Shown here: positions 24,369-62,321 of the stretch, piece after piece | Numbering within the stretch: position 1 is the stretch's first letter | Layout of the letters: every line of letters begins with the position of its first letter | DNA from: Micromonospora zamorensis | GTDB lineage: Bacteria > Actinomycetota > Actinomycetes > Mycobacteriales > Micromonosporaceae | Direction of reading: 5' to 3' | NCBI RefSeq assembly: GCF_900090275.1 | Contig: NZ_LT607755.1 | Span: forward strand, 6,944,001 to 7,008,000 | DNA: 64,000 bases | Notes under the pieces: model-generated | Databases searched by the model: none | What the model saw: only the letters and a program-made list of their open reading frames with translations | What the model was told of the DNA's origin: nothing | Made by a program: the position numbers and the translations under genes

Positions 24369-24680
24369 CCGACCCCGCGTGCTCGGCCCGCGCTCGGCTC
24401 TGCCTCTGCGGCCTGCCGTCGTGCTCGCGCGGCCTGCGCTCGCCTTGATCAGCTCGGGTTTCAGGAAGTCGGCCTTAAATCGGCGCGGAACGCCCCGACT
24501 TTCAGAAACCCGAGTTGACCATGCGCCGCGCGGCCGTGCCGACCACGCGGCCACGCGGGCCGTGCCGACCACGCGGACCGTGGCGGCCGTGCCGGCCACG
24601 CCGGGGCTGGACTGCCCACCCGCAGACACGACTCAGCCCGCCGGCCAACAGTGGCCGACGGGCTGGCGGTGTCGTGGTGG
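24369..24680. other. 312-bp intergenic region with palindrome and GC repeats
   Basis: No gene is visible. It holds palindrome copy 1 (24444-24520) flanked on both sides by simple GC-rich repeats, the clearest at about 24521-24610 with units close to GCCGTGCCGACCACGCGG. It separates the convergent tatB and mrp genes. Confidence 0.75.
24444..24520. repeat. Dispersed ~80-bp palindromic repeat, copy 1
   Basis: The arms GATCAGCTCGGGTTTC... (left) and ...GAAACCCGAGTTGACC (right) match at 22 of 26 positions and can form a long hairpin. It shares sequence with copies at 54362-54440 and 62241-62321. It could also act as a terminator for tatB and mrp. Confidence 0.8.
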
Positions 24681-25829
24681 TCAGCGACCGGCGGGCTTGA
24701 GGCCGAGCGGCTTGCCGAGCAGCGACTCACGGCGCATCGCGAGCCGGTCGGCGACGGAGTTGAGTGCCTGCGCGGCCGGGGACTCCGGATCGGCCAGCAC
24801 GATCGGGTTGCCCGCGTCGCCGGCTTCGCGGACCCGGGTGTCCAGCGGGATCTGCCCGAGCAGTGGCACCTGGGCGCCGATGGTCCGGCTCAGCGACTCG
24901 GCGACGGCCGTGCCACCCCCGGCACCAAAGATCTCCATCCGTGAGCCGTCCGGGAGCTCCAGCCAGGACATGTTCTCGATGACGCCGACGACCCGCTGGT
25001 GGGTCTGCAGGGCGATCGCACCGGCCCGCTCGGCCACCTCGGCGGCGGCGGTCTGTGGGGTGGTGACGATCAGGATCTCCGAGTTGGGGAGCAGTTGGGC
25101 CAGCGAGATGGCCACGTCGCCAGTGCCCGGGGGCAGGTCGAGCAGGAGCACGTCCAGGTCGCCCCAGTAGACGTCGGCCAGGAACTGCTGCAACGCCCGG
25201 TGCAGCATCGGGCCGCGCCACACCACTGCGGCGTTGCCGGAGGTGAACATGCCGATGGAGATCACCTTCACGCCGTGCGACTGCGGCGGCATGATCATGT
25301 CTTCGACGCGGGTGGGCCGGGCCTCCGTGCCGAGCATCCGGGGCACCGAGTGGCCGTAGATGTCCGCGTCGACCACGCCGACGGAGAGCCCGCGGGCGGC
25401 GAGGGCCGCTGCCAGGTTGACAGTCACGCTGGACTTGCCGACGCCACCCTTGCCGCTGGCAACCGCGTACACACGGGTGCGCGAGCCGGGCTGGGCGAAC
25501 GGGATGACGGGCTCCTCGGTGGCGCCTCCGCCGCGCAGCTGCGACTGCAACCCCTGCCGCTGCTCGGGGGTCATCACACCGAAGTCGATCTCCACGCCGG
25601 TGACGCCGGGCACCGCTGCGACGGCGGCGGTGATGTCGTTACGCAGCTTGTCCTTCAGGGGGCAGCCGGCGACGGTGAGCAGCAGCTCGACGCGTACGAC
25701 ACCGCTGGCACCGATCGTGGCGGAGCGGACCATGCCCAGCTCGGTGATGGGCCGGCGGATCTCCGGGTCGTTGACGGTGGCCAGGGCGGCCTGGATCGCG
25801 TCCTCGACGGTGCTCACGGGTGCTGACAT
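24681..25829 (-). CDS. mrp: Mrp/ApbC-type Fe-S cluster carrier ATPase
   Basis: A 382-aa P-loop protein. The N-terminal MIP18/DUF59 domain (DAIQAALATVNDPEIRRPI, with one Cys in TVAGCPL) is followed by a deviant Walker A, GKGGVGKSS, and LLLDLPPGTGDV. It is predicted to carry or insert Fe-S clusters. The C-terminal CxxC that binds the cluster in many Mrp proteins is absent: the region reads NMSWLELPDGSRMEIFG, as in the mycobacterial protein. TAGCAT ends 7 nt before the ATG at 25829. It corresponds to Rv1229c. Confidence 0.93.
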   Translation of the reverse strand: MSAPVSTVEDAIQAALATVNDPEIRRPITELGMVRSATIGASGVVRVELLLTVAGCPLKDKLRNDITAAVAAVPGVTGVEIDFGVMTPEQRQGLQSQLRGGGATEEPVIPFAQPGSRTRVYAVASGKGGVGKSSVTVNLAAALAARGLSVGVVDADIYGHSVPRMLGTEARPTRVEDMIMPPQSHGVKVISIGMFTSGNAAVVWRGPMLHRALQQFLADVYWGDLDVLLLDLPPGTGDVAISLAQLLPNSEILIVTTPQTAAAEVAERAGAIALQTHQRVVGVIENMSWLELPDGSRMEIFGAGGGTAVAESLSRTIGAQVPLLGQIPLDTRVREAGDAGNPIVLADPESPAAQALNSVADRLAMRRESLLGKPLGLKPAGR

Positions 25830-25836
25830 GCCCGCA

Positions 25837-25842
25837 ATGCTA
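25837..25842 (-). promoter_or_regulatory. -10-like TAGCAT of mrp
   Basis: TAGCAT on the minus strand ends 7 nt before the mrp ATG. Confidence 0.5.
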
Positions 25843-25905
25843 CGTCGCGGGGCATCCGCTGCCGCCGCTGGCCGGGGCGGTGTGAGCCAATCGATGACCC
25901 GTTGA

Positions 25906-26556
25906 TCAGCCGTCCGCTGGGCGCGGCCCGGTGCCGTCCGGCCGGGCTTCCCGGGCGAAGTCGCCGTCCAGGTCGTCGCGTGGCTCGTCCAGGCCGACAC
26001 CGTCGGTCGGTCGCCTGCCGCGCTTCTCCTGCCGGATGTCCTTGTCCTGCTGGCGGCGTTCCAGCCGTTGCCGGCGCTGCCCCGCCTCGTCCAGTTCCTC
26101 GGCCAGCCGGGCCAGCTCGGAGCGGAGGAAGTCGCGGGTGGCCACCTCACCCATCGCGATCCGCAGTGCGGCGATCTCCCTCGCCAGGTACTCGGTGTCC
26201 GCCTTCTGCGCGGTGGCTCGCCGCCGGTCCTCCTCCAGGGCCACGCGGTCCCGGTCGGCCTGCCGGTTCTGGGCCAGCAGGATCAGCGGCGCCGCGTAGC
26301 TGGCCTGCAACGACAGCACCAGGGTCAGGAACGTGAAGGTGTACGGGTCGAAGCGCAGGTCCGTCGGGGCCAACGTGTTCCAGACGAACCAGATCGCGAT
26401 CACCACCGTCATGACGACGATGAAGTTCGCGGTGCCCATGCCCCGGGCGATGCCCTCGGACCACCGGCCGAAGGCCTCCGCGTCGAACCGGGGCAGCTTG
26501 ATGCCCCGGGGCTCGCGTGGCTGGTCGAGCCGCTCGTTCCGCCGCTGCTCAGCCAT
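25906..26556 (-). CDS. DUF1003 membrane protein
   Basis: A 216-aa protein with two transmembrane helices (residues about 43-63 and 75-95), the DUF1003 signature ending SLQASYAAPLILLAQNRQ, and then a long charged coiled coil. Its ATG lies 8 bp inside the end of the MgtE-N/CBS gene, so the two are coupled. The pair equals Rv1231c-Rv1232c in order. The function is unknown; the association with an MgtE-like cytoplasmic domain suggests a divalent-cation or membrane-linked sensor complex (inference). Confidence 0.88.
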   Translation of the reverse strand: MAEQRRNERLDQPREPRGIKLPRFDAEAFGRWSEGIARGMGTANFIVVMTVVIAIWFVWNTLAPTDLRFDPYTFTFLTLVLSLQASYAAPLILLAQNRQADRDRVALEEDRRRATAQKADTEYLAREIAALRIAMGEVATRDFLRSELARLAEELDEAGQRRQRLERRQQDKDIRQEKRGRRPTDGVGLDEPRDDLDGDFAREARPDGTGPRPADG

Positions 26557-27835
26557 CCGCGCCGTCCAGCCCCACGTCGGTGGTGCCCGGGCCGGTCAGG
26601 GCGTCGCGGTCCCGCCAGTCCCGGGGCAGCGAGTGGTCCAGCACGTCGTCCACTGTCACGGCGCCGACCAGCCGGTTGCTCCGGTCGATCACCGGCATGG
26701 CGACCAGGTCGTAGGTGGCCATCCGACGGGTGATCTCCGGTAACGGGGTGGTGGGGCGCAGCGGGTCGATGTCGTTGACCACCACCTTGCCCAGCAGGTC
26801 GGCCGGCGGCTCACGCAGCAGCGCCTGGAAGTGCACCATGCCCAGGTAGCGGCCAGTCGGGGTGATCTGCGGCGCCCGGGTCACGAAGACCTGTGCGGCG
26901 ACGGCGGGAGAGAGCTGTGGCTCCCGGATCCGGGCCAGCGCCTCGGCGACGGTGGCGTCCGGCGGCAGGATGACCGGCTCCGAGGTCATCACACTGCCCG
27001 CCGTGCCGGGCGTGTATTTCAGGAGCTGACGCACCGGGTCGGCCTCGTCCGGCTCCATGAGGTCCAGCAGCACGTCCTGCTCCGGTGGGGGCAGCTCGTT
27101 GAGCAGGTCCGCGGCGTCGTCCGGGTCCATCTCCTCCAGTACGTCGGCGGCCCGCTCCCGGTCGAGGGCGGCGAGGATCTCCACCTGGTCGTGCTCGGGC
27201 AGCTCGCTGAGCACGTCGGCCAGCCGCTCGTCGTCCAGCGCGGCAGCGACCTCGTTGCGCCGGGCGTCGGGCAGGTCCTGCAGCGCGTTGGCCAGGTCGG
27301 CCGGGCGCATGTCCTCCAGGACGGCGAGCAGGTTGGCCGTACCCCGGTTGTCGGCGATGCCGCTGAGCCCGCGCACCCGGTCCCACTCGACCTGGTGCAG
27401 GTGGCCGCGGCGGCTGAGCCGACCGGTCTGCTCCCGTACGGCGACGCGGGTCAGCGACCACTCGCCGCCCCGGCTGCAGTCCATCGCGACGTCCACGACG
27501 GCGCCGGGCTGGCCGCCCGGGTCGAGCTGTACCCGTCGGTCCAGCAGTTCCTGGAGCACCAGCAGCTCGTTCGGGCGCTTCTCGAACCGGCGCAGGTTGA
27601 GGGTGCCGGAGCCCAGCACGACGGCGTCCACGTCGATGGACGTGATCCGGTTGATGGACAGGAAGATCCGGCGGCGCATCGGCATCTCGGCGACGAGGCC
27701 CACCACCTCCGGGGGCCTTTTGGTCGCCCGCAGCCGTGCCACGGCGTCACGAACCCGCCCCACCTGGTCACCGTTCGGGTCGAAGACGGCGACTCCGGCG
27801 AGACGGGCGATGTAGACCCGGGTCGGCGTGCTCAC
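26549..27835 (-). CDS. MgtE-N and CBS domain protein lacking the channel domain
   Basis: A 428-aa soluble protein. An N-terminal PRC-barrel-like part (RVYIARLAGVAVFDPNGDQ) is followed by MgtE-N superhelical repeats (DLANALQDLPDARRNEVAAA and on, about 180-280) and two CBS domains (from MTSEPVILPPDATVAEAL). The MgtE transmembrane Mg2+ channel is missing, so it is not itself a transporter. The neighbouring DUF1003 protein may supply the membrane part. The start is GTG 27835, with TAGGCT ending 7 nt before it. Confidence 0.88.
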   Translation of the reverse strand: MSTPTRVYIARLAGVAVFDPNGDQVGRVRDAVARLRATKRPPEVVGLVAEMPMRRRIFLSINRITSIDVDAVVLGSGTLNLRRFEKRPNELLVLQELLDRRVQLDPGGQPGAVVDVAMDCSRGGEWSLTRVAVREQTGRLSRRGHLHQVEWDRVRGLSGIADNRGTANLLAVLEDMRPADLANALQDLPDARRNEVAAALDDERLADVLSELPEHDQVEILAALDRERAADVLEEMDPDDAADLLNELPPPEQDVLLDLMEPDEADPVRQLLKYTPGTAGSVMTSEPVILPPDATVAEALARIREPQLSPAVAAQVFVTRAPQITPTGRYLGMVHFQALLREPPADLLGKVVVNDIDPLRPTTPLPEITRRMATYDLVAMPVIDRSNRLVGAVTVDDVLDHSLPRDWRDRDALTGPGTTDVGLDGADG

Positions 27836-27842
27836 GGGCACC

Positions 27843-27848
27843 AGCCTA
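27843..27848 (-). promoter_or_regulatory. -10-like TAGGCT, minus half of a compact divergent promoter
   Basis: TAGGCT on the minus strand ends 7 nt before GTG 27835. It lies only 6 bp from the opposite -10 of the phzF-like gene. Confidence 0.55.
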
Positions 27849-27854
27849 AGCGCC

Positions 27855-27860
27855 TAGTGT
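27855..27860 (+). promoter_or_regulatory. -10-like TAGTGT, plus half of a compact divergent promoter
   Basis: TAGTGT ends 8 nt before ATG 27869. A -35 box at standard spacing would fall on the start codon of the divergent gene. Confidence 0.55.
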
Positions 27861-27868
27861 TTATCAAC

Positions 27869-28738
27869 ATGTCGACCTTGGCCTACGAGATCGTGGACGT
27901 CTTCACCGACCGCCCTTTCGCCGGCAACCCGCTGGCCGTGGTGTTCGGCGCGGAAGCGCTGGCCACCGAGCAGATGCAGGCGCTCGCGTTGGAGTTCAAC
28001 CTGTCCGAGACGGTGTTCGTGCTGCCACCGACCCAGGTCGGCGCCACCTACCGGGCCCGGATCTTCACCCCGGTGGAGGAGTTGCCGTTCGCCGGGCACC
28101 CGAGCGTCGGCGCGGCGGTCACCGCCAGCCGCCGGGGCATGTTCGGTGTGGGACAGGTCACCCAGGAGTGCGAGGCCGGGGTGCTGCCGATCGAGGTGAC
28201 CGCGTCGGGGGCGACGCTGACCGGGGGCACGCCGACTCTCGGGCCGGAGTTGGACCCGGAGCCGTTGCTGGAGATCGCCGGGCTGCTCGCGGACGACCAC
28301 ATCGGGCCCGCTCCCCGCGTCGCCGGCTGCGGTTTGGAGTTCCCGTACCTCCCGGTGCGTCCGGAGTCGGTGGCCCGCGCGCGGGTGAACGCGACGGCGG
28401 CGCAGCGTTATGGGGTGTCGCACGTCAGCGTCTTCTCCTGGGACGCCGCCACGCAAACCGCGCACGCCCGGGTCTTCGTGCCGGGGATGGGTGTCCCGGA
28501 GGACCCGGCGACCGGCTCGGCGGCCCTCGGCCTCGGTGTCTGGCTGGTGGCGAGCGGTCAGCTGCCGGCCGAAGGGCTGTCCCGTTACGCGGTCCGTCAG
28601 GGTGTGGAGATCAACCGCCCGTCCTCGCTGGCCTGCACGGTCACCGCGGCGAACGGTGTGGCGGTCGGCGCGACCGTCGCCGGTCAGGTGATGCCGGTGG
28701 CGCGCGGTGAGATCGCGGTGCCGCCGTTCGTGGGCTGA
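27869..28738 (+). CDS. PhzF-family epimerase/isomerase
   Basis: A 289-aa protein of the PhzF / diaminopimelate-epimerase-like fold. FTDRPFAGNPLAVVF at the N-terminus, the catalytic Glu in EFNLSETVFV and GVPEDPATGSAALGLG at the C-terminal half are all present. Most relatives are uncharacterised isomerases; PhzF itself acts in phenazine synthesis, but no other phenazine gene is here. It is divergent from the MgtE-N/CBS gene with 33 bp between start codons. Confidence 0.9.
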   Translation: MSTLAYEIVDVFTDRPFAGNPLAVVFGAEALATEQMQALALEFNLSETVFVLPPTQVGATYRARIFTPVEELPFAGHPSVGAAVTASRRGMFGVGQVTQECEAGVLPIEVTASGATLTGGTPTLGPELDPEPLLEIAGLLADDHIGPAPRVAGCGLEFPYLPVRPESVARARVNATAAQRYGVSHVSVFSWDAATQTAHARVFVPGMGVPEDPATGSAALGLGVWLVASGQLPAEGLSRYAVRQGVEINRPSSLACTVTAANGVAVGATVAGQVMPVARGEIAVPPFVG

Positions 28739-28796
28739 TCGCACCAAAGCGCCGCCGGCCTACGCGTCAGCGGCCAAGGTGCGGCAGGATGCGAGG

Positions 28797-29306
28797 GTGA
28801 CTGACGACGCGCGCGGGTCGACGCCGCTGGTCGACGAGGCGATGAAGAAGGCCGCCGTGGCCTGGGTCAGCGTTTCCGGTGGGCCGGCGCTCGCGCTCTG
28901 GTGCGCCCCACTGGAGGGCGCTCTCCTGGTGGTCAGCGGGCCGGGCGAGCAGGCAGCGCCGGGTCTGGCCGACGCCACCGAGGCGCAGGTCTCCCTGCGC
29001 GGCGACCACGGTGGTCGGATCGTCACCTGGTCGGCACAGGTGAGCCGGGTGCAGCCGGGCACCGAGGCGTGGGACACCACCGCGCCGCTGGTGGCGGCGA
29101 AGCGTCTCAACGCGCCCGGTCCGACCGCTGATCTGGTGGCCCGCTGGGCCGCCGACGGATGCGCGGTCAACCGGCTCACCCCGGCCGGAACGCCGCTGGC
29201 CGGCGCGGACCTGCCGGCCGACGCGCAGGCCGAGCCGCCTCGGCCCACACCGGCCGTCCGGGCCACCCGCAAGCCGTTCCGCCTGCACCGGGTTCGTCGC
29301 CGCTGA
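28797..29306 (+). CDS. Conserved hypothetical protein
   Basis: A 169-aa protein that I do not recognise. The core (AVAWVSVSGGPALALWCAPL, LLVVSGPGEQ, GRIVTWSAQV) reads as a beta-barrel of the flavin-nucleotide or pyridoxamine-oxidase-like type, followed by a Pro/Arg-rich basic tail. It starts at GTG 28797, with GGCAGGAT ending 6 nt before it. The frame opens at 28707, but that part overlaps phzF. Confidence 0.6.
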   Translation: MTDDARGSTPLVDEAMKKAAVAWVSVSGGPALALWCAPLEGALLVVSGPGEQAAPGLADATEAQVSLRGDHGGRIVTWSAQVSRVQPGTEAWDTTAPLVAAKRLNAPGPTADLVARWAADGCAVNRLTPAGTPLAGADLPADAQAEPPRPTPAVRATRKPFRLHRVRRR

Positions 29307-29314
29307 TCGGCGCG

Positions 29315-30034
29315 TCAACCCGTCCGGCCGCCGGCGCCCACCACCTCGGCGTCGACGTCGACCAGGGCGAGCACCTCGCGCAGGGTGCCGATTGTGGGGC
29401 CGCGCCAGTCCAGGTCGGCGTTGAACACCATGTGTGTGGCCAGGTCCGCCGCGGCGAGCCGGACCGCGGTCATCCCGGCCCGCTCGGCGCCGGTCAACTC
29501 CTGGCTGCCGCCGTCACCGACGTACAGGCAGTTGCCCGGGGCGAGCCCGAGCCGCTGGCAGGCGGTCAGGTAGAGCGCCGGGTCCGGCTTGCACCGTCCA
29601 ACCTGTACCGAGAAGACCCGCACGTCGAGCAGCCGGGCGACCGCGAGCTGTGGCAGGAAGGCCGGCAGTTCGTGCGTACAGTCGCTGATCACCCCGGTAC
29701 GCAGGCCGCGCTGGCGTAGGGCCGCCAGCACCGGCACGGCGTCGGCCCGCAGCCAGGTGTCCGCGCGGACCGCCCGGTGCCGGGACGCCACGGCCGCCCG
29801 CACCGCGGTGTCGTTCGGGTGTACGCCGGCCTGGGCGCACACCCACCGAAGGGTCGCCTCCGCGTTGCCGAGTCGACCGGTGGCCCGCTCGTAGTACGTG
29901 CGGTCCAGCACCTCGGTCAACGTGTCGGTGTCGCATCCGAGCAGCTCGGCGGTGTCGGTGTGCGCGACACCGCGCTGCACCGAACGGGTGAGGGTGCCGA
30001 AGAAATCGAACAGCACCGCCTGGTAGGTGGGCAT
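29315..30034 (-). CDS. HAD-superfamily hydrolase
   Basis: A 239-aa phosphatase-type protein. Motif I reads LFDFFGTLT, so the first nucleophile Asp is present (DFFGT; the common form is DxDGT), motif II Ser/Thr in VISDCTHE, motif III Lys in RCKPDPALY and motif IV in YVGDGGSQE. GGAGG precedes the ATG at 30034. The substrate is unknown; the short cap and overall layout suit a small-molecule phosphatase or dehalogenase-like member. Confidence 0.88.
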   Translation of the reverse strand: MPTYQAVLFDFFGTLTRSVQRGVAHTDTAELLGCDTDTLTEVLDRTYYERATGRLGNAEATLRWVCAQAGVHPNDTAVRAAVASRHRAVRADTWLRADAVPVLAALRQRGLRTGVISDCTHELPAFLPQLAVARLLDVRVFSVQVGRCKPDPALYLTACQRLGLAPGNCLYVGDGGSQELTGAERAGMTAVRLAAADLATHMVFNADLDWRGPTIGTLREVLALVDVDAEVVGAGGRTG

Positions 30035-30140
30035 GGGGGAGCGCCTCCGGGCGGTCGGGGGTTGGCGGCGCGGACCCGCGTGATCGTAACGGAGTGATGA
30101 CCCTGCGTGTTGTCCGTCATACGTGTGAGGATTACGTCCC

Positions 30141-31097: not shown

Positions 31098-31103
31098 CGG
31101 CCT

Positions 31104-31748: not shown

Positions 31749-31840
31749 GCCTCGATGTTGGTTGCCGACCACTCCAAGATCAAGTCTTGTTCTCGCCCGC
31801 CACCCTGTGATGAAGTGAGGGAAGACGCAGGTCCCTCCGG

Positions 31841-32116: not shown

Positions 32117-32123
32117 GGCGGCC

Positions 32124-32129
32124 ACGCTA
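32124..32129 (-). promoter_or_regulatory. -10-like TAGCGT overlapping the SDR stop codon
   Basis: TAGCGT on the minus strand ends 7 nt before ATG 32116. Its first three bases are the SDR stop codon. Co-transcription with the SDR gene is equally possible. Confidence 0.4.
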
Positions 32130-32972: not shown

Positions 32973-32978
32973 GGCGCG

Positions 32979-32984
32979 AGGTTA
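32979..32984 (-). promoter_or_regulatory. -10-like TAACCT of the SDR gene
   Basis: TAACCT on the minus strand ends 6 nt before ATG 32972. Confidence 0.45.
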
Positions 32985-53539: not shown

Positions 53540-54202
53540 TCAACCGCGTACGACGATGGCGAATCGAGTGCCCTCGGGGAGCCCGACGGCGCGTTTCGCC
53601 TGGTCGGGGCGGAGCGCCAGGTAGAGCGCCGAGGACCCGTCGGTCGCGTCGGCGCCCAGCACGTCCAGCACCAGCACCGCGGGCGCGAGCAACGTCGCCT
53701 CGGTGCCCGCCCCACCCGGTGTCGCGGCGAGCAGGTCGACCCGGGTCCCAGGGCGGGCCACCGCCAGCGCGGCCGGCTCGGCCAACCGGACCGGCACCCC
53801 GACAGCGCCACTGGGCAGCGGCAGCGGGCTGGTCCTCCCGCTCCCGGTGGTCGTGCCGTCCCGGCCAGTGCTGCCGTCTCCGGCGGTGCCGCTTCCGGTG
53901 GTCGAGCTGTCTCCGGCGGCTGCTCCGGTTGGCGGTGGCCCGGCCGTGTCGCTGTCACCGGTGGACCCTGCCCCACCGGGGTCGGTCGGCCCGCCCTCGT
54001 CGAACCGCCCGGCCGTGCCGTCGGCCCCCGTCGGCGCACGGGATGGCTCGGCCGTCGGCGGGCAACTGGTCGGGGTGTGCAGAATGGCAGCGGCCAGGCC
54101 GAGCAGTACGGCGACCAGACCGGCCCGGAGCAGGGTGCGCCCGCCGGGCAGGGTGAGCCGGCGCAGCGGACGCAATGCCCGCGCGGAATCTGGATCGCCC
54201 AT
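53540..54202 (-). CDS. SAF-domain (RcpC/CpaB-like) membrane protein
   Basis: A 220-aa protein with one N-terminal helix (LLRAGLVAVLLGLAAAIL), a long Gly/Thr/Ser-rich linker (about 50-125) and a C-terminal SAF-type beta-clip domain (AVGVPVRLAEPAALAVARPG, LYLALRPDQAKRAVG). In Flp pilus systems CpaB has this layout; no other pilus genes are near, so it may be a stand-alone relative. The 310 bp between it and fmdB hold the second palindrome copy. Confidence 0.75.
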   Translation of the reverse strand: MGDPDSARALRPLRRLTLPGGRTLLRAGLVAVLLGLAAAILHTPTSCPPTAEPSRAPTGADGTAGRFDEGGPTDPGGAGSTGDSDTAGPPPTGAAAGDSSTTGSGTAGDGSTGRDGTTTGSGRTSPLPLPSGAVGVPVRLAEPAALAVARPGTRVDLLAATPGGAGTEATLLAPAVLVLDVLGADATDGSSALYLALRPDQAKRAVGLPEGTRFAIVVRG

Positions 54203-54361: not shown

Positions 54362-54440
54362 CTTGATCGACTCGACTTCAAGGAAGTCGGGGTGTCAGGG
54401 CAGCCGGGACAGGCCGGTTTCCGTAAACCCGAGTGGATCA
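54362..54440. repeat. Dispersed ~80-bp palindromic repeat, copy 2
   Basis: Shares CTTGATCGACTCG, GGAAGTCGGGGTGTC and AAACCCGAGTGGATC with the other copies. The arms are more diverged than in copies 1 and 3. It is followed directly by GGCTCAGGCCGGC-type tandem repeats. Confidence 0.78.
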
Positions 54441-54445
54441 CGGGT

Positions 54446-54512
54446 CAGGCCGCCGGCTCAGGCCGGCGGCTCAGGCCGGCGGGGTCAAGCCGCCGGACTC
54501 AGGCCGACGGGG
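54446..54512. repeat. GC-rich minisatellite beside palindrome copy 2
   Basis: Imperfect units close to GGCTCAGGCCGGC repeat about five times between the palindrome and the fmdB stop. Confidence 0.6.
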
Positions 54513-54941
54513 TCAGGACGCGGAGCTGGCCGCCGTGGACTTGCCGCCGCTCGACCCACCCGACGACGAGCCGCCAGAGGACCCACCAGAGGACCCACCG
54601 GACGACGAACCCGAACCCGAAGACGACCCGGAACCCGAGGACGATCCCGAACCGGAAGACGACCCCGACGAGGAGGAACCGGACGACCCCGAGCCCTCGC
54701 CTGAGGACGACTCGGACTTGCCGGGCTTGGTGGCCGTGCCGCCGGCCGTCGTCTCGGAGCCGGACGCCCGCGAGTCGGTGCGGTAGAAGCCCGAGCCCTT
54801 GAAGACGATGCCGACCGAGTTGAAGACCTTGCGCAGCCGCCCCTGACACGCCGGGCACTCGGTCAGCGGCTCGTCAGAGAAGGACTGCACCGCCTCGAGC
54901 TGCTCACCGCACGTGGTGCAGGCGTACTGGTACGTGGGCAC
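54513..54941 (-). CDS. FmdB-type zinc-ribbon protein, Ruc-like redox-regulated chaperone
   Basis: A 142-aa protein: an N-terminal zinc ribbon with two CxxC pairs (YACTTCGEQ; TECPACQG), the conserved VGIVFKGSGFYRTDSR, and a C-terminal tail of Ser/Gly repeats (SGSSSGSGSSSG). It is the counterpart of M. tuberculosis Rv0991c (Ruc), a heat-shock redox-regulated chaperone with a disordered tail. A CIRCE element lies 29 bp before its GTG, and GGAGGAG lies 3 nt before. It is downstream of the 5-FCL gene, 62 bp apart. Confidence 0.9.
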   Translation of the reverse strand: MPTYQYACTTCGEQLEAVQSFSDEPLTECPACQGRLRKVFNSVGIVFKGSGFYRTDSRASGSETTAGGTATKPGKSESSSGEGSGSSGSSSSGSSSGSGSSSGSGSSSGSGSSSGGSSGGSSGGSSSGGSSGGKSTAASSAS

Positions 54942-54969
54942 GTTCTCCTCCGGATCTGGGCTCAGCCAG

Positions 54970-54996
54970 TTGGCACTCGACCTATTCGAGTGCCAA
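54970..54996. promoter_or_regulatory. CIRCE element (HrcA operator)
   Basis: TTGGCACTC-N9-GAGTGCCAA is a perfect inverted repeat equal to the CIRCE consensus with the G/C-variant arms used in actinobacteria. It sits upstream of the FmdB/Ruc-like gene and predicts HrcA-dependent heat-shock control. Confidence 0.93.
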
Positions 54997-55003
54997 TGGT
55001 GCG

Positions 55004-55681
55004 TCATCCGGCCCGGGTTCGTCCAGCGGACGTGTGGGGCGCGACACCATGCGCCGCACCCGGGCCGCCGTCAAGCGTACGCACTCCGTCGGCGGGTGTG
55101 ACGACCGCGCGGACAAGCCGGTCGTGTGCCTCCGCCGGCAGCGCCTCGACCAGTTCCCCGTCGTGCAGAGGCACCACGGTCAGCGTCGACTCGGGCACCC
55201 GGGCGAGCGCGCGGTCGTACGAGCCGCCGCCGCGTCCGAGTCGCCGGCCGTGGTGGTCCACGGCGAGAGCCGGTACGACCACCAGCTCCGCGTCCGCCAC
55301 GGCGGTCACCCCGAGGCGGGCGCCGGTCGGCTCCCGCATACCCCGACCGGCGGCGATCAGGTCCTCGGGCCCGGTATATGCCGCCCAGTCCAGATCGAGG
55401 TCGTCGAGGAGCACGGGCAGCAGCAGTTGGGCGTCGGTGGGCAACGCCGCCCGCAGTGCGTCCGGCAGGTCTGCGCCGCCCGGTTCGGAGCCGACCGGCA
55501 CGTACGCCGTCATCCTGCGCGGGCGCAGTCTGCGTACCAGGGCGACCAGCTCGGCCTGCACGCGCCCGGCGGCGGCGGCCCGGGCGGGGCCGGGCAGCGA
55601 GCGGCGGCGGGCGAGCAGGTCGGCGCGGGCTTCCCGCTTCGCGGTACGGGTCACTTCCGCTTCATAAGAAAATTCCGGCAC
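55004..55681 (-). CDS. 5-formyltetrahydrofolate cyclo-ligase
   Basis: A 225-aa ATP-dependent enzyme converting 5-formyl-THF to 5,10-methenyl-THF. Signatures: KREARADLLARRRSL at the N-terminus, YVPVGSEPG, and the ATP/Mg loop GRRLGRGGGSYDRALAR. GTG 55681 is preferred because AGGAG stands 6 nt before it; GTG 55711 and GTG 55654 are alternatives. The first codons are AT-rich. It corresponds to Rv0992c, and fmdB follows with its own CIRCE-controlled promoter. Confidence 0.9.
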   Translation of the reverse strand: MPEFSYEAEVTRTAKREARADLLARRRSLPGPARAAAAGRVQAELVALVRRLRPRRMTAYVPVGSEPGGADLPDALRAALPTDAQLLLPVLLDDLDLDWAAYTGPEDLIAAGRGMREPTGARLGVTAVADAELVVVPALAVDHHGRRLGRGGGSYDRALARVPESTLTVVPLHDGELVEALPAEAHDRLVRAVVTPADGVRTLDGGPGAAHGVAPHTSAGRTRAG

Positions 55682-55766
55682 GCAACACTCCTGACGCAAC
55701 GCCTCTCCCACGGTTGCACTGTGTCAGCATCGCAAGCAACGGAGGCGGAACTTCCGGGGGGACCGA

Positions 55767-58079
55767 GTGACGCTACGCGGGCGGTTGACAGCAGCCTTCC
55801 TCGTGGTGGTGCTCGGGCCGGTCCTGCTCGGCGCGCTGTTCGTCGCCTCCACGCTCGCGGCCGTCGACCGCAGCCGCTCCACCGAGCGCTTGGCGGTGGC
55901 GGCGTCCACAGTGCGTACCTCGGTCGACGCCCTCTGCCAGCAGCTGCGGGCCACCGCCGACGCGGTGGCGCTCACCGCCGAGCCGGCCGTCGGCGCCGCC
56001 CAACTGGTCGATCGAGGTCTGGCCGCCGCGGTGCTGATCACCGACCTGACCGGCGAGGTCAGCTACGTCTCGCCGGACGCGCCGCCGACCCCGTGGCGGG
56101 ACTGCTCCGGCTCGACCACCGGTTCGGCCAGCCCCGTCCGGGCGCTGGCCGCCCACGTCGACCTGCGCGACCGCGCCGGCACGCTGCGGGGCACTGTGAC
56201 CGCCGCGCAACTGGTCGACCCGGCCTTCGTGGCCCGGCTGGCGGCGGTGACCGGGGTGGCGGTCACCCTGCTCGACAGCGGAGCGAGCGCCGCGCGGGTC
56301 ACCCACACCACAGAGTCCCGGGAGGTACGCGACGCGGTGCTGGCCGCCGCCAGCACCGTCGAAGGCGAGCGGGTCACCGAAACCACCGAGGGCCGGTACG
56401 TGCGGAGGATCGGGCCGTCCGACGAGCAGCCGCTGCCACTGGTGCTCTCCGTGCCCAGTGAACGGCCGCCGGGGCTGCACGCCACGCTGGTGGGGGTGGT
56501 CGTGCTGGCCGGGCTGCTCGCCGTGCTGACCGCCTGGCGGCTGGCCCGGGTGACCACCCGGCCGCTGGTGGAACTGGCCGGTGCGGTGGACCGGGTGGCC
56601 CAGGGTGACCTGACCGCCCGCGTGCCGGTCCGCAGCCGCGACGAGCTGGGTCGGCTGGCCGCCGCGTTCAACCGGATGACCCGGGAGACCGGCTCCTACG
56701 TCGCGGCGTTGACCAGCAACCGCGACCAGCTCCGTGGGCACCTCGCCGTGCTCGGCGACACCCTGGCCAGCACGCACGACCTGCAACGCATCCTGCGGGT
56801 GATCCTGCACAGCGCCATCGGCGCGACCGGCGCGCGCGCCGGCGCGGTGCTGCTGGTGGAGGCGGGCGGGGTGCTTGTCGCCCAGTGCACCGAAGGGCTG
56901 GACGGGCGGTGGCCGGAGGGCGACACGGACGGGTCGTCGACGCTTCGGGTGCCGGTGGGGGTCGGTGTGGTCGGTGCGGTCGCCGCCACCGGGGAACCAC
57001 AGCGGGGCAGGGTGGAGCCGAGCGAGGTTCCGTCGGGTGAGCCGCGCTGTCGCACGTACGTCGCGGTCCCGTTCGCGGCCCCGGGCGGAGGCGCCGCGCC
57101 CACCCTCAGCGGGTCCGGCGACGAGGCCGGAGCGGCGGCGGCACTCGGCGTGCTGGCCCTGTACGACCGGCTGGGCGCCGACGAGTTCGACGACGACGAC
57201 CTGGTCACCCTGCGCACCTTCGCCGGTCACGCGGCCGTGGCGGTGGACAACGTGCGGGTGCACGAGGAAGCGCAGCGGCTCTCGCTCACCGACCCGCTCA
57301 CCGGCCTGTGGAACTACCGCTACCTGCGCGAGTCGATCCGGCGGGAGGTGGAACGGGCCAGCCGGTTCGGGCGGATGCTCAGCATCCTCGCGATGGACCT
57401 CGACCGCTTCAAGGACGTCAACGACACGTACGGGCACGCTGCGGGGGACACCGTGCTGGCCGAGTTCGCCCGGAGGGTGCGCGGCGAGATCCGCGAGGTC
57501 GACCTGGCCTTCCGTCAGGGCGGTGAGGAGTTCGTGCTGCTGCTGCCGGAGACCGACGCGCGGGGCGCGGCGATCGTGGCCGAGCGACTCGGCGCGGCGG
57601 TTCGCGAGACGCCGATCGCCGTCGAGGCGTACGCCGGGCCGGTCCTGGTGACCGTGTCGGTGGGCATCGCCGTCTACCCGGACAACGGCAGCACCGGGCG
57701 GGAGGTGCTGGAGGCCGCCGACGACGCGCTCTACGCAGCCAAGGCGGCCGGCCGCGACACGTACCGGGTCGCCGAGGTGCGCCCGGACGTGCCGACGCGG
57801 GAGATACCGGTGCTCGCCTGCGCGGTCAGTCCACCCGACGGGCTGCCGCGCGCCGGTCAACCCGCGCAGGTCATCCGGGAGCCGGGCGGGCCCGCCCGGT
57901 CGGAGCCGGCTGTGGGCGTACCGGAATCATCTGCGACGCACGCGCGGCCGGAACCGGCCGACGACGGCCCGGACAGCGCGACCGGCGGGGCGCGGGCCGG
58001 CCCGGACGCCGCGCGGCCGGGGCCGGGTGGCGGCGCGTCTTCTGGGCCACACCCGCCGCGACAGAGCCGTGGCCGATAG
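55767..58079 (+). CDS. HAMP-GAF-GGDEF diguanylate cyclase
   Basis: A 770-aa membrane sensor. One N-terminal helix, an extracytoplasmic sensor domain (about 35-230), a second helix (VGVVVLAGLLAVLTAW), HAMP (VTTRPLVELAGAVDRV), coiled coil, GAF (about 350-480) and GGDEF (about 500-665). The active-site loop is RQGGEEF, catalytically competent, and the inhibitory I-site RxxD (REVD) is intact five residues before it, so c-di-GMP synthesis with product inhibition is expected. A 100-residue Pro-rich tail follows. It is inserted between the 5-FCL and galU genes relative to the mycobacterial order. Confidence 0.92.
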   Translation: MTLRGRLTAAFLVVVLGPVLLGALFVASTLAAVDRSRSTERLAVAASTVRTSVDALCQQLRATADAVALTAEPAVGAAQLVDRGLAAAVLITDLTGEVSYVSPDAPPTPWRDCSGSTTGSASPVRALAAHVDLRDRAGTLRGTVTAAQLVDPAFVARLAAVTGVAVTLLDSGASAARVTHTTESREVRDAVLAAASTVEGERVTETTEGRYVRRIGPSDEQPLPLVLSVPSERPPGLHATLVGVVVLAGLLAVLTAWRLARVTTRPLVELAGAVDRVAQGDLTARVPVRSRDELGRLAAAFNRMTRETGSYVAALTSNRDQLRGHLAVLGDTLASTHDLQRILRVILHSAIGATGARAGAVLLVEAGGVLVAQCTEGLDGRWPEGDTDGSSTLRVPVGVGVVGAVAATGEPQRGRVEPSEVPSGEPRCRTYVAVPFAAPGGGAAPTLSGSGDEAGAAAALGVLALYDRLGADEFDDDDLVTLRTFAGHAAVAVDNVRVHEEAQRLSLTDPLTGLWNYRYLRESIRREVERASRFGRMLSILAMDLDRFKDVNDTYGHAAGDTVLAEFARRVRGEIREVDLAFRQGGEEFVLLLPETDARGAAIVAERLGAAVRETPIAVEAYAGPVLVTVSVGIAVYPDNGSTGREVLEAADDALYAAKAAGRDTYRVAEVRPDVPTREIPVLACAVSPPDGLPRAGQPAQVIREPGGPARSEPAVGVPESSATHARPEPADDGPDSATGGARAGPDAARPGPGGGASSGPHPPRQSRGR

Positions 58080-58082
58080 TCT
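58077..58082 (+). promoter_or_regulatory. -10-like TAGTCT of galU, overlapping a stop codon
   Basis: TAGTCT ends 6 nt before ATG 58089, and its TAG is the stop codon of the GGDEF gene. Confidence 0.5.
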
Positions 58083-58088
58083 CGCGGC

Positions 58089-59051
58089 ATGTCGGAGCAC
58101 TCAGCGAACCCCTCATCGACGGTCGCCGCAACTGGCCGTCCCCTGGCGGTCAAGGCCGTCATCCCGGCCGCCGGACTGGCCACCCGGTTCCTGCCAGCCA
58201 CCAAGGCGGTGCCCAAGGAGCTGCTGCCGGTGGTGGATCGGCCGGTTCTGCAGTACATCGTCGAGGAGGCCACCCAGGCCGGCATCGGTGACGTGTTGCT
58301 GATCACCGGTCGGGGTAAGACGTCGATGGTGGACCACTTCGACCGTCGCCCAGACCTGGAGACCAGGCTGGAGGAGAAGGGTGACACCGAGCGGCTGGCC
58401 GCGGTGCGTCGCCCCAGTGAGCTGGCCGAGATCTACACCGTCCGGCAGCCCGAGCAGCTCGGGCTCGGCCACGCCGTCGGGTACGCCGAGTCGCACGTCG
58501 GCGACCAGCCCTTCGCGGTGCTGCTCGGCGACGAGTTCGTCAAGCCGTCGGAGCCGCTGCTGCCGGCGATGCTGGAGCTCCAGGCCCGCACCGGCGGTGT
58601 GGTGCTCGCCTTCTTCGAGGTCGACCCGGCCGAGACCAAGCGGTACGGCATCGCCTCCGTCGAGCCGGCCGAGTCGGAGCTGACCGACATCGGTGAGGTC
58701 GTCAAGGTGACCGGGATGGTGGAGAAGCCGCAGCCGGAGGACGCGCCGAGCAACCTCGCGGTGCTCGGCCGCTACGTGTTGCCGGGCAAGATCTTCGACG
58801 CGATCCGGCGGACCAAGCCGGGCAGCGGCGGCGAGATCCAGCTGACCGACGCGATGGAGTTGCTGCGCACCGAGGGCACCCCCGTGCACGCGATCGTCTA
58901 CCGGGGCACCCGCTACGACACCGGCATGCCGCTGGGCTACCTGCAGACGGTGGTGCAGATCGCCGCCGAACGCGAGGACCTGGGCAGCGAGTTCCGCTCG
59001 TGGCTGGCCGACTTCGTCAAGGCCGACGCGGCGGGCGGATCTGGTACATGA
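58089..59051 (+). CDS. galU: UTP-glucose-1-phosphate uridylyltransferase
   Basis: A 320-aa nucleotidyltransferase that makes UDP-glucose for cell-wall and carbohydrate synthesis. Signatures: VIPAAGLATRFLPATKAVPK, GLGHAVGYAESHV, FAVLLGDEF and EIQLTDAMELL. Length and motifs are standard. It starts 9 bp after the GGDEF stop and overlaps the MoeA-like gene by 4 bp, so galU-glp form an operon, as in M. tuberculosis (Rv0993-Rv0994). Confidence 0.96.
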   Translation: MSEHSANPSSTVAATGRPLAVKAVIPAAGLATRFLPATKAVPKELLPVVDRPVLQYIVEEATQAGIGDVLLITGRGKTSMVDHFDRRPDLETRLEEKGDTERLAAVRRPSELAEIYTVRQPEQLGLGHAVGYAESHVGDQPFAVLLGDEFVKPSEPLLPAMLELQARTGGVVLAFFEVDPAETKRYGIASVEPAESELTDIGEVVKVTGMVEKPQPEDAPSNLAVLGRYVLPGKIFDAIRRTKPGSGGEIQLTDAMELLRTEGTPVHAIVYRGTRYDTGMPLGYLQTVVQIAAEREDLGSEFRSWLADFVKADAAGGSGT

Positions 59052-60361
59052 CCGCGACGGCCGACGCCGAGGCGGCCGCGAACGAGTTGACGCCGCTCGC
59101 CGACTACCTGGGCAGCGTGCTGCGCAGGTTACGCGCGCTGCCGCCACTCGACCTCGACCTCACCCAGGCGCACGGCAACGTCCTCGCCGAGGACGTCGTC
59201 GCGCCGCACGCCTTCCCGGCCTTCGACCAGGCTGCCGTGGACGGCTACGCGGCCCGCTGGGAGGACATTTCCGGAGGGGGTCGGGGCCCGAGCTACGTCC
59301 CGGCCCCCTCCGGCACGCCCGGCGGCCGGACCATCCGGCTCAACGTGGTGGGCGATCTGGGTGCCGCGAGCTGGCGGCCGGTCCGGCTCACCCCGGGTTC
59401 GTGCTTCTCGGTGGCCGCCGGAGCGCCGCTGCCGGTCGCCGCGGACGTGGTGGTTCCGGTGGAGTGGACCGACCAGGGCATGGCCGCTGTGGAGATCTTC
59501 CGCACCCCCAAACGGGGGTACGGGGTACGCCGAGCCGGTGAGGAACTGCCCGTCGGCACTCTGCTCGCCCGCGCCGGCACGTACGTCTCGCCGGCCCTGG
59601 TCGCGGTCTTCGCCGCCACCGGCATCGGGCATGTGGTGGTCCGGCCCAGCCCACGGGTGGTCATCGTGGCCACCGGCGACGAACTGGTCGACGTGGGTCG
59701 GGGCAGTCAGCCCGGGCAGGTGGTGGACGCGAACTCGCACGCGTTGACCGCCGCCGCGGCCGAGGTGGGCGCACTGGCGTACCGGGTGGGGATCTGCGAC
59801 GACGACCCGGAGGGGCTGCGCGGGCTGCTGGAGGACCAGACCCTGCGCGCCGACCTGATCATCACCACCGGGGGCACCGGCACCGGCCCCGGAGACATGG
59901 TGCGCCGGATCCTGTCCCGCCGCGAGGGCGGCCGGGCCGGGCCGGTCACGTTCACCGACGTGGCGCTCTATCCCGGCACCGCGCTCGGGTTCGGCACCGT
60001 CGGCGCCGAGGAGGTGCCGGTGGTCTGCCTGCCCGGCGACCCGGGCGCTGCGCTGATCGGTTTCGAGGTGCTGGCCCGCCCCGCCATCCAACTGCTCGCC
60101 GGCGCCGAGCCGGTATTCCGACCCAGCGTGCGGGCGCACCTGCTGGAGACCGTGTCGTCGCCGACGGGGCTGCGCGAGTTCCGGCCGGCGCACGTCGCCG
60201 AGCGACGCGGCGGTGGATACACGGTCCAGCCTCTCAGCGGTGGGCCGTTCACGCTCTCCGGGCTGGCCGAGGCGAACGGCCTGCTGGTGCTCGGCGAGCG
60301 GGTAACCACGGCCGCCGCCGGTTCCACGGTGGACGTCCTGCTGTTGGACCGCCGCCGGTGA
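59048..60361 (+). CDS. glp: MoeA/gephyrin-like protein (Glp)
   Basis: A 437-aa MoeA-family protein. The N-terminal AHGNVLAEDVVAPHAFPAFD and AAVDGYAAR match MoeA; the domain with the nucleotide-binding loop reads IITTGGTGTGPGD, where canonical MoeA has GGVSVGD. In corynebacteria the homologue beside galU, called Glp, binds FtsZ and a membrane receptor (GlpR) and takes part in cell division. The position and the presence of a GlpR-like gene 0.9 kb downstream fit that. ATG 59048 overlaps the galU stop (ATGA). A moonlighting molybdopterin role remains possible. Confidence 0.88.
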   Translation: MTATADAEAAANELTPLADYLGSVLRRLRALPPLDLDLTQAHGNVLAEDVVAPHAFPAFDQAAVDGYAARWEDISGGGRGPSYVPAPSGTPGGRTIRLNVVGDLGAASWRPVRLTPGSCFSVAAGAPLPVAADVVVPVEWTDQGMAAVEIFRTPKRGYGVRRAGEELPVGTLLARAGTYVSPALVAVFAATGIGHVVVRPSPRVVIVATGDELVDVGRGSQPGQVVDANSHALTAAAAEVGALAYRVGICDDDPEGLRGLLEDQTLRADLIITTGGTGTGPGDMVRRILSRREGGRAGPVTFTDVALYPGTALGFGTVGAEEVPVVCLPGDPGAALIGFEVLARPAIQLLAGAEPVFRPSVRAHLLETVSSPTGLREFRPAHVAERRGGGYTVQPLSGGPFTLSGLAEANGLLVLGERVTTAAAGSTVDVLLLDRRR

Positions 60362-60470
60362 CGGTGACCCGGTCGATCCGCCGGCTGGCCACTCGGGCGC
60401 CGCGCGGTCATCGGGTCCACGCGGTGGGTCCACTTGCGCGCGACACGGTCCCGCGCGGGAGACTGTGCGG

Positions 60471-61121
60471 GTGAGTCTCTTCGGACCCCCGCGGGCACCG
60501 GGCTGGCCGGTGGAGTTGGCGGACGGCCCGGTGTTGCTGCGGCCCTACCGGCGCTCCGACGCGGCGGCATGGTCGGAGATACGGCGGGCCAACCGGGCCT
60601 GGCTGGCACCCTGGGAATCATCGCTGCCCGGCGCCTGGGACGACCTCAACTCGCCGGCCGCGTTCCGCTGGGTGCACCGTGACCAGCGTCGTTCCGCCCG
60701 TGAGGGTGAGGGAATGCCGTTCGCGGTCTGTCTGCGCGAGGCCGACCGGGACCGGCTGGTCGGGCACATCAACGTGGGCAGCATCGTGCGGCGGGCGCTC
60801 TGCTCCGGCTACGTCGGCTACTGGGTGGACGCCCGGGTCGCCGGCCGAGGTGTGATCCCGACGGCGCTCGCGCTCGCCGTGGACCACGCGTTCGGCCCGG
60901 GCGGGCTGCACCGGGTGGAGGTCAACATCCGTCCGGAGAACCGGCCGTCCCGGCGGGTGGTGGAGAAACTGGGCTTCCGCGAGGAGTCGTACCACGTGCG
61001 CTACATGCACATCGACGGCGCTTGGCGTGACCACATCGGATACGCGATGACGAGCGAGGAGATCGCCGCCGAGGGCGGCCTGTTGGCCCGCTGGCACCGG
61101 GTACGCGCCAACGCCCGCTGA
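60471..61121 (+). CDS. rimJ: GNAT-family N-acetyltransferase, RimJ-like
   Basis: A 216-aa GNAT acetyltransferase with the acetyl-CoA loop in GYWVDARVAGRGVIPTAL and the C-terminal VEKLGFREE region. In the mycobacterial order galU-moeA-rimJ it corresponds to Rv0995. Its likely role is N-terminal acetylation of a ribosomal or other protein. GTG 60471 is preferred over the GTG six bases earlier. Confidence 0.88.
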   Translation: MSLFGPPRAPGWPVELADGPVLLRPYRRSDAAAWSEIRRANRAWLAPWESSLPGAWDDLNSPAAFRWVHRDQRRSAREGEGMPFAVCLREADRDRLVGHINVGSIVRRALCSGYVGYWVDARVAGRGVIPTALALAVDHAFGPGGLHRVEVNIRPENRPSRRVVEKLGFREESYHVRYMHIDGAWRDHIGYAMTSEEIAAEGGLLARWHRVRANAR

Positions 61122-61304
61122 GTCGTCCCACGGGCGGGATCGGCGCGGCGCGGTGGCATCCCGGTCGGCGCGCCGTAACCTCAAGTAACTGCAAGCTGCG
61201 GCAAGCGCTCCCCGGCCGGACGATCCACGCACCAAGGCGCGATCGGTGGAAGATCCTGCGGTTCGGTGGCGGTTGCGACGAATTCGGTGACGGGAGGGGT
61301 GAGG

Positions 61305-62081
61305 GTGCCGACCTCGGTGCTCCTCGCCGTCCTCGCCGCCGCCGGCCTGCTCGCCCTGGCCCCGGCGCTGGTCCGCCGGTACGACGCCACCGAGCGGCTG
61401 GTGGCGGAGCGGGCGCAGTCGACGGCGCGGGTGCTCCAGCGCCGCCGACGGCGCCGCACTGTGCCCGGACGGCAACCCGTCCACCCACCGCGCTCGCTGG
61501 TCGTCACCCTCAGTGAGAACGCGACTACGGGGGTGTTGGGTGCGCCGGTCTCCGCGCCCCCAGCCGCCCGCCGCTCCGGTCGGCTGCGCGCCGTGCCACC
61601 CGCACCCAAGGGGTCCCGCCGCCGCCCGCCGCCGCGCCGACAGCACACCCCCGCCGTGTACCGGCGCCGGCGGGTGCTCGCCGCGCTGCTGCTCCTCAAC
61701 GTCGTCGAGCTGGTCGGCGTGCTGTTCGTCAGCCCCGGCTTCTGGATCGGCTTCTCGGTCACCTTCCTGCTCCTGGCCACGTACGTCGTCCACCTGCGCG
61801 GTCAGGCCCTCGCTGGGCGTCGTCGCCGCCGCGCCCGGGCCCGCGAGGCGGCCTGGTTGGCCGCCCGGCAGGCCGAGGTGCGCCGGGAACAGGCCCGCCG
61901 GGCGGCGGCCCGCCGGGAGGCGCAACGCCGCCTGGCCGCCCAGCGCGAGGGGGTACGCCGAGCCGCGATGGGCCTGGACCGCCCGGGAGACCTGCCGGCG
62001 GCAGTCAACGGTGGGTCGGTCTCGTACCGGCGCTCGGGCGGCCTACGCGGACGCCCCTACGAGGCCGGCCGCGGCGCCTGA
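61305..62081 (+). CDS. GlpR/SepX-like two-helix membrane protein
   Basis: A 258-aa protein with helices near its N-terminus (VLLAVLAAAGLLALAPALV) and in the middle (LAALLLLNVVELVGVLFV; FWIGFSVTFLLLATYVV), a basic loop between them (residues about 45-125) and a long Arg/Ala-rich coiled-coil tail. It matches Rv0996 in position and layout; homologues are GlpR in corynebacteria (the Glp receptor) and SepX in Streptomyces (division). GTG 61305 follows GGGAGG by 7 nt; earlier starts at 61266 and 61299 are less well placed. Confidence 0.82.
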   Translation: MPTSVLLAVLAAAGLLALAPALVRRYDATERLVAERAQSTARVLQRRRRRRTVPGRQPVHPPRSLVVTLSENATTGVLGAPVSAPPAARRSGRLRAVPPAPKGSRRRPPPRRQHTPAVYRRRRVLAALLLLNVVELVGVLFVSPGFWIGFSVTFLLLATYVVHLRGQALAGRRRRRARAREAAWLAARQAEVRREQARRAAARREAQRRLAAQREGVRRAAMGLDRPGDLPAAVNGGSVSYRRSGGLRGRPYEAGRGA

Positions 62082-62084
62082 GCC

Positions 62085-62225
62085 GGCGACGGCCGGGCGT
62101 GGCCTGGCCGCGCGTGGCCTGGCCTCGTCGGGCCTGGCCTGGCGTGGTCGGGCGCGGCCTGGCGCGGGCCTGGCCTGGTCGGGCGTGGCGTGGTCGGGCG
62201 TGGCCTGGCCCGACTCGGCCTGGTT
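62085..62225. repeat. GC-rich minisatellite beside palindrome copy 3
   Basis: Irregular units related to GGCGTGGCCTGG and GGCGTGGTCGGGC repeat about a dozen times. The array ends 16 bp before the palindrome. Confidence 0.75.
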
Positions 62226-62240
62226 CGGTCGTGCTCCCGG

Positions 62241-62321
62241 CTTGATCGACTCGGGTTTCTGGAAGTCGGGGTGTCGTGGCGTCCCGGATGCCCCGATTTT
62301 CGGGAAGGCGAGTGGATCAAG
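62241..62321. repeat. Dispersed ~80-bp palindromic repeat, copy 3
   Basis: Ends CTTGATC (62241) and GATCAAG (62321) are perfect inverses; the body GACTCGGGTTTCTGGAAGTC then GGGGTGTCG matches copies 1 and 2, and the right arm contains CCCCGATTTTCGGG. Confidence 0.82.

Follow-up and report, generated by a model that had tools for sequence, protein, structure and literature searches.

What kind of element is an ~80-bp palindrome that recurs between the genes of an actinomycete chromosome, and what maintains it? The question is raised by a stretch of 64,000 nucleotides of Micromonospora zamorensis (the window; positions 6944001-7008000 of a single-contig genome of 7.096 Mb, here called G000), which holds three copies of such a palindrome. 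Our best reading, to which we give roughly one chance in two, is that they belong to a repeat population built like the REPINs, which are inverted doublets of repetitive extragenic palindromic (REP) units. This population would exist without a REP-associated tyrosine transposase (RAYT) and would be kept by selection as a putative double-stranded protein-binding site at the 3' ends of genes.

The three copies lie at 24444..24523 (copy 1, 80 bp, one base short at the center), 54362..54442 (copy 2), and 62241..62321 (copy 3), with no strand assigned. A covariance model, R1, built from 25 copies with all three in its training, recovered them on the + strand at E values of 4.2e-15, 4.6e-18, and 2.4e-21, respectively, and its scan of the window yielded no further full copy at E below 0.006. 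Folding of the same strand far exceeded that of shuffled sequences (z -6.9, -4.0, and -7.5), with copy 3 reaching -51.9 kcal/mol. An earlier note on this DNA, made from its letters, had placed palindromes at these three sites, and these results bear it out. Its observation as a whole was confirmed in part. The letters it gave as common to the copies were approximate: copy 2 belongs to the family but has CTCGACTTC rather than CTCGGGTTTC, and copy 1 ends in GAGTTGACCA, not GAGTGGATCA.

The 17-base end motif TTGATCNACTCGGGTTTC, with at most two mismatches, matched four times in the window, compared with none in each of 100 dinucleotide shuffles, and 85 times in G000. The reversed pattern had no match in G000, which is a weak control because it contains CTAG, a rare word in this genome (0.155 per kb vs 6.78 per kb for GATC). 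Over 400 kb, 200 letter-permuted patterns averaged 0.015 matches with a maximum of 1, against 10 observed, all of which fall inside or adjoin a copy. A chance origin of the motif matches is ruled out by the dinucleotide shuffles and the permuted patterns. Among 150 scored candidates, R1 yielded at least 79 sites in G000; the motif pattern added four, and a sequence profile added one more in a completely read 400-kb stretch holding eight copies. The family comprises at least 84 sites in the chromosome, these counts being lower bounds, and most tests described here use 83 of them. As a plain DNA query, copy 1 returned 15 matches in G000, itself included and with two places counted on both strands. 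Copy density is uneven, at 1-5 per 0.5 Mb from 1.0 to 4.0 Mb and 5-11 in the other full bins, and the copies are extragenic, with one of the 83 called inside a gene and four not classifiable. Thus, three copies in 64 kb did imply many in the genome, as the earlier note had supposed, and the covariance-model search returned copies in the tens to hundreds, most of them intergenic, across the genome and the genus.

Each of the 83 sites has the complete palindrome, and in some of them one end has decayed (the left end is not GATC in four, the right in seven). Inverted outer GATCNACT ends enclose two inverted arms, each itself a 17-bp palindrome, and an inverted central GGYRTC. Counted from GATC as 0, the outer inverted ends occupy positions 0-7, the palindromic arm positions 8-24 (i+j=32), and the center positions 25-33, and the second half mirrors the first. 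An exact GATC stands at both ends of 73 copies, and the GATC-to-GATC distance is 75 in 65 of them and 74 in the other 8; the remaining 10 of the 83 copies were omitted from the pairing and target-duplication tests. The arm register i+j=32 was the best of nine in four clade sets, with pairing of 0.63-0.77 compared with at most 0.51 in the other eight. In copy 3, the left arm (62252..62268, + strand) covers positions 8-24 and the right arm (62294..62310, - strand) mirrors it, and in copy 2, the left arm is the clean palindrome CGACTTC-AAG-GAAGTCG. Both arms of any one copy are of the same type.

At three orthologous loci (5, 6, and 3 sequences), variation was seen in 4 of 96 cases for the columns that the family conserves, against 38 of 87 for its variable columns (p 6.6e-11). 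At the inner positions, which were unused for discovery, the corresponding counts were 2 of 36 and 18 of 51 (p 0.0015). Since conserved columns rarely vary at orthologous loci, selection appears to act in place. Orthologous elements were also more alike than both of their 80-bp flanks in 15/21, 21/21, and 8/10 pairs at the three loci, averaging identities of 0.82, 0.83, and 0.75 against 0.63-0.77 for the flanks, a contrast that is overstated because the flanks evolve fast through minisatellites. Random paralogues averaged 0.735 and random flanks 0.616. Judged from the letters, the pattern looks like a sequence-specific site under selection with its free positions randomized, unlike a compensated structure or a decaying relic.

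A different explanation is that the palindromes act as RNA hairpins, either as bidirectional transcription terminators or as stabilizers of mRNA 3' ends. Compensatory changes, which the earlier note had named as support to be sought, showed no general excess over shuffles, a few columns excepted. When the 3' letters were shuffled among 25 copies, pairing was 80.0%, compared with 80.2% observed. Most cross-arm columns in 65 copies showed no excess and one showed a deficit (z -2.2), while columns 15, 20, 23, and 25 from GATC covary across the arms (z 3.4, 2.7, 4.7, and 2.3). No excess of pairing within arms was found in 146 arms. Within-arm pairing was 0.759 vs 0.794 shuffled in 21 type-2 copies (1000/1000 shuffles at or above) and 0.652 vs 0.687 in 14 copies of the related genomes G034 and G030 (996/1000 at or above); it lay at the shuffle mean in G000 and slightly above it in G036, which contributes only three copies. 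The strongest dependence in the arms is between neighboring bases (TG/TA/CA and GT/AC/AT), as for a sequence that is read as DNA. Between clades, the arms change on both sides. The lack of a general compensatory excess speaks against a dominant constraint from RNA structure, and an RNA hairpin as the main conserved entity was rejected, with no general excess of pairing over shuffles and with letters conserved in orthologues. A cloverleaf with covarying arm hairpins was likewise rejected, the arms being palindromic across clades with no covariation within a clade.

The position of the copies relative to genes bears on the same explanation. Within 150 bp, 32 of the 83 copies have a called gene on both sides (18 convergent, 13 tandem, and 1 divergent), compared with 10, 66, and 41 comparable copy-free gaps, which amounts to an excess of convergent pairs (Fisher, 2.9e-8) and an avoidance of divergent ones (1.2e-4). 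With a 300-bp limit, the counts are 22, 22, and 5 against 13, 83, and 58. Loose limits over all 83 copies give 28 convergent, 38 tandem, 12 divergent, 1 inside a gene, and 4 unclassified; the tight limits were adopted because the gene caller mislabeled two copies of the window. By these in-house gene calls, a neighboring gene takes its TGA stop codon from the copy in 10 of the 83 cases. None of the 83 has a TTTT in the 12 nt that follow its right end or an AAAA in the 12 nt that precede its left end, and a terminator-like hairpin stands beside the copy, or in its place, at the copy-1 and copy-2 slots. On both counts, the plain intrinsic terminator envisaged in the earlier note was not borne out. 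The RNA explanation is favored by the strong folds, the location at 3' ends, the stop codons supplied, the four covarying columns, and the occupation of the copy-3 slot by different palindrome families in other species (see below). It is opposed by the lack of a general compensatory excess, the pairing deficit in two sets of copies, the conservation of letters rather than pairs, the missing T-runs, and the separate hairpins beside copies 1 and 2, and we consider it unlikely.

According to the preferred reading, the palindrome would be the unit of a REPIN-like population, with two inverted 17-bp palindromic arms at a fixed spacing inside inverted GATCNACT ends. Selection would maintain each site as double-stranded DNA that a chromosomal protein would recognize, acting at gene 3' ends and mainly between convergent genes. 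We infer that such a protein would read both arms as a dimer or a pair of dimers. Its role may concern the chromosome, for example, the handling of supercoils between convergent genes. In Escherichia coli, REP elements and bacterial interspersed mosaic elements (BIMEs) are said to handle supercoils between convergent genes through gyrase.

Several points weigh against this reading, beyond the overstated contrast with the flanks. The column test covers three loci only, omits the copies of G029 (77 bp) and of the more distant G017 and G020, and takes its column classes from 73 G000 rows that include the three G000 copies tested; moreover, the copy finder allowed one change per outer 9-mer, and the discovery pattern shares positions 0-17 with the columns. 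The TG/CA/TA and GT/AC/AT steps can also come from C-to-T and G-to-A transitions. Given the four columns that covary across the arms, the hairpin state may matter too. Finally, the in-house gene caller is crude, and its loose run called copies 2 and 3 convergent when they are truly tandem.

Across the genus, R1 at E <= 1e-6 matched in 30 of 36 genomes, from 2 to at least 76 times per genome, with at most 76 candidates scored in each. In other families of the same order, it gave a single match in one of 24 genomes. The exact whole-element pattern had no match in the genome collection, and the half-element pattern matched 19 stretches, all from Micromonospora. A bare pattern matched 56 of 113 genomes of other genera of the family (121 family genomes drawn), 1-4 times each, compared with zero for its reversed control, a zero that is not relied on because the reversed control contains the rare CTAG. 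The matches listed from those genera, which represent part of the places, are of varying length, with several recurring in sequence that looks coding, and none has palindromic arms by eye; on this basis, the family is taken as confined to Micromonospora. Plasmids and phages queried with one copy gave no match, and no publication describing the palindrome family was found in the literature library, including by sequence.

Within the genus, the arms are specific to clades. They are CCACYTCGnCGARGTGG-like in G018, G019, G021, G026, G033, and G009, CCGTTCCGCCGGAACGG-like in G003 and G036, and CCATGTCGGCGACATGG-like in G006. The arm letters switch between clades yet stay roughly palindromic in the same register. 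A pattern that leaves the arms free, TTGATCNACTCN{45,70}GATCA, matched 14 of 17 genomes, with a minority of its matches not palindromic.

The dispersal of the copies, and the differences in slot occupancy among relatives, would also fit a non-autonomous mobile element, either a miniature inverted-repeat transposable element (MITE) or a REPIN, spread by another or a lost enzyme; conservation would then reflect recognition by that enzyme and not a host function. There is no copy in the copy-1 slot of G002 and G024. At the copy-2 slot, G024 has an orthologous copy beside a terminator-like hairpin, and G002 has the hairpin only. The copy-3 slot was examined in 25 genomes besides G000. Type-1 copies occupy it in G034, G030, G028, G024, G017, and G020, with part of one in G004, and diverged versions occur in G026, G032, G006, G008, and, weakly, G012. 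Another palindrome, ending in AAGATC, stands there in G003, G009, G011, G019, G021, G022, and G033, and a third kind in G018. No such palindrome is present in G002, G029, G005, and G036, and the slot of G016 was not readable. In the close relatives G002 and G029, the slot was probably emptied by loss, given that outgroups carry a copy, and no clean gain was shown in the slots compared.

The search for a mobilizing enzyme gave little. No target duplication with z above 2 was detected at 5 offsets and lengths of 2-9 in 73 copies. Y1_Tnp (PF01797) had no candidate in G000 and was detected in 5 of 14 control genomes, including E. coli; among G000-G022, its presence is unrelated to copy number by eye. 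Four Y1 loci in relatives (G002, G006, G014, and G020) had no copy within ~1.5 kb. A RAYT was rejected for G000 by the PF01797 search, with the same four loci lacking a nearby copy. A transposase with matching ends, which the earlier note suggested looking for, was not found, families other than Y1_Tnp not having been searched genome-wide, and no parent element for the palindrome was found.

Some copies also border duplicated blocks. The homology of six recent secreted-protein paralogues in G000 (at 698665, 2450662, 2541571, 2934650, 2943644, and 5443996; the family is also on L307, L310, and L311) starts within ~7 bases of a copy's outer end. The secreted-looking protein has ~185-220 aa. In four of the six blocks, a second palindrome of another family lies at the opposite border, and three comparable blocks of G002 terminate precisely at a copy's outer end. 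From these borders, the palindromes also mark the edges of duplicated blocks. A mobile gene cassette ending in the palindrome was considered and set aside: the two member proteins scanned had no Pfam match, the copy at the one paralogue site followed is also present in G029, G024, G034, G002, G028, and G030, and no other shared flanks were found among the 83 copies, except overlaps of neighboring copies. Near-identical copies in G020 belong to a larger repeat. Overall, the block borders, the dispersal, and the differing slots favor a mobile element, as does the finding that E. coli genomes without a RAYT still contain REPINs (available text of PMC8049555). Against it stand the absent target duplications and Y1_Tnp, the Y1 loci without a nearby copy, the unrelatedness of Y1 presence to copy number, the letters that stay fixed at resident sites, and the lack of a clean gain. 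We regard this explanation as possible though doubtful.

The earlier note had further linked each copy to GC-rich minisatellite DNA. Short-period GC arrays adjoin copy 2 (54441..54517, period 13-14, score 80-84 in Tandem Repeats Finder) and copy 3 (62091..62210, period 15, score 117), neither with a strand. The imperfect GC-rich repeat named at copy 1 (24521..24610, no strand) is visible by reading and falls below a Tandem Repeats Finder score of 50. Genome-wide, the enrichment was borne out: an array lies within 150 bp of 33 of 83 copies, compared with 13.2% of 19,055 random intergenic positions (p 1.5e-9), the control coming from one 400-kb stretch and arrays of half elements being counted. 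At one locus followed across relatives, the DNA separating a terminator-like hairpin from the element varies from species to species, and arrays fill it in G002 and G030. Whole elements form 194-bp tandem units in Micromonospora cabrerizensis (L049), where an apparent orthologue of copy 1 (L049 5930-6420) comprises three units of ~194 bp. Half elements form ~40-bp tandem units in the 5325715 region of G000 and at 6483290-6484150 of G019. Because whole and half elements form such local arrays, we read the minisatellites as a side effect, and they look like a by-product of local duplication at the palindrome. The same arrays and the minisatellite enrichment would suit functionless palindromes that are fragile and owe their persistence to mutation and local duplication alone; this is very improbable in view of the column-specific constraint, the nearly fixed length, and the clade-wide consensus.

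The comparison with known repeat systems places the family closest to REPINs. In the available text of PMC3116915, a REPIN consists of a pair of palindromic units in inverted orientation, separated by a fixed-length spacer, and a rod or clover fold is possible. REPINs and BIMEs occur in tens to hundreds of extragenic copies, some in ordered tandem clusters that include flanks, and the persistence of REPINs is attributed to a domesticated RAYT with a low rate of copying (available text of PMC3116915 and PMC8049555 for the former, PMC8049555 for the latter). The Micromonospora family resembles the REPINs and BIMEs of Pseudomonas and E. coli, as described in these texts, in its inverted palindromic doublet, conserved spacer, copy number, extragenic sites, possible hairpin or clover fold, and occasional tandem clusters. 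It differs in that its ends are GATC and no GTAG tag is present at the arm edges (by reading of the consensus of 25 and of 83 copies), in that no Y1/RAYT was found in G000, and in that compensatory changes, reported there as common in REPIN spacers, are not general. Since both the GTAG tag and the RAYT are missing, the family works like a REPIN population and is not filed as REPIN. The REP-like structural element suggested in the earlier note is thus upheld, more precisely as a REPIN-like design. Its interpretation was partly supported, standing for copy number, minisatellites, and REP-likeness and failing for compensation, the transposase, and the plain terminator.

Other families are more distant. 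The CGTC-tagged REPs of PMC3733652, in the text available, are likewise palindromic repeats with no known dedicated transposase, but they are 20-40 bp units with a CGTC tag, in contrast to a tagless doublet of ~80 bp; the main text of that source, as available, has neither Micromonospora nor words beginning with actino. Stem-loop families of the enterobacterial repetitive intergenic consensus (ERIC) type are also long intergenic imperfect palindromes but a different family. The survey in question comprises 40 genomes, and its available main text has neither Streptomyces nor words beginning with actino (PMC2267715). MITEs share the short length, the dispersal, and the inverted ends, whereas neither a target duplication nor a parent element was found for the Micromonospora family.

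In the window, all three copies are intergenic, as first described, between flanking features that were our choice. Copy 1 sits between an open reading frame (ORF) at 23946-24368(+) and an Mrp/ParA-type ATPase ORF at 24681-26150(-). Copy 2 sits between an ORF at 53540-54202(-) and a zinc-ribbon protein gene at 54513-55007(-), which itself contains a coding minisatellite (54574-54677). Copy 3 lies upstream of a tRNA gene (62440-62513) and after an ORF at 61266-62081(+). At gathering scores, Rfam gave only two tRNAs across the window, and the palindromes match no curated family. Three of the close pairs of copies in G000 were inspected for genes, which gave Maf, an O-methyltransferase, and two small ORFs with no Pfam match.

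Further palindromes share this genomic landscape. About 10 other long kinds, many with GATC near their ends, were seen in 400-kb stretches of G000, G002, and G024 (G000 6680001-7080000, L081-L100; L172-L211), among them TTGATCATGAAGTTATTGCC.., GATCAAGAGGTTTGCGTCA.., GATCTTGGAAGG.., ATCTTGGACAGTTTCCGTTA.., and TGATCACTTGATGCTGAGTAG... Separately, hairpins at 7030375-7030448 and 7063467-7063528 of G000, with relatives in G002 and G024, have the loop CCGGGCGGTCAGGCTTGATCCCT in common; their stems vary in sequence but remain complementary. They look like a structured RNA or a protein-bound hairpin, and Rfam gave no match at the two G000 loci.

Extending the preferred reading to the genus, we propose tentatively that Micromonospora chromosomes may each carry ~100 putative docking sites of a RAYT-independent population, mainly between converging genes. 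The arms would be re-specified in concert when the binding protein of a clade changes, and the further GATC-ended palindrome families would be parallel codes competing for slots. If true, this would be a case of concerted evolution of a genome-wide cis-code in bacteria. The clade-specific arms would supply naturally occurring variants in specificity with which to look for the binding protein. More generally, a REPIN-like population is seemingly held letter by letter in a genome in which no RAYT was found. If confirmed, function would be separated from copying, and the family would become a test case for the role of such repeats at gene ends.

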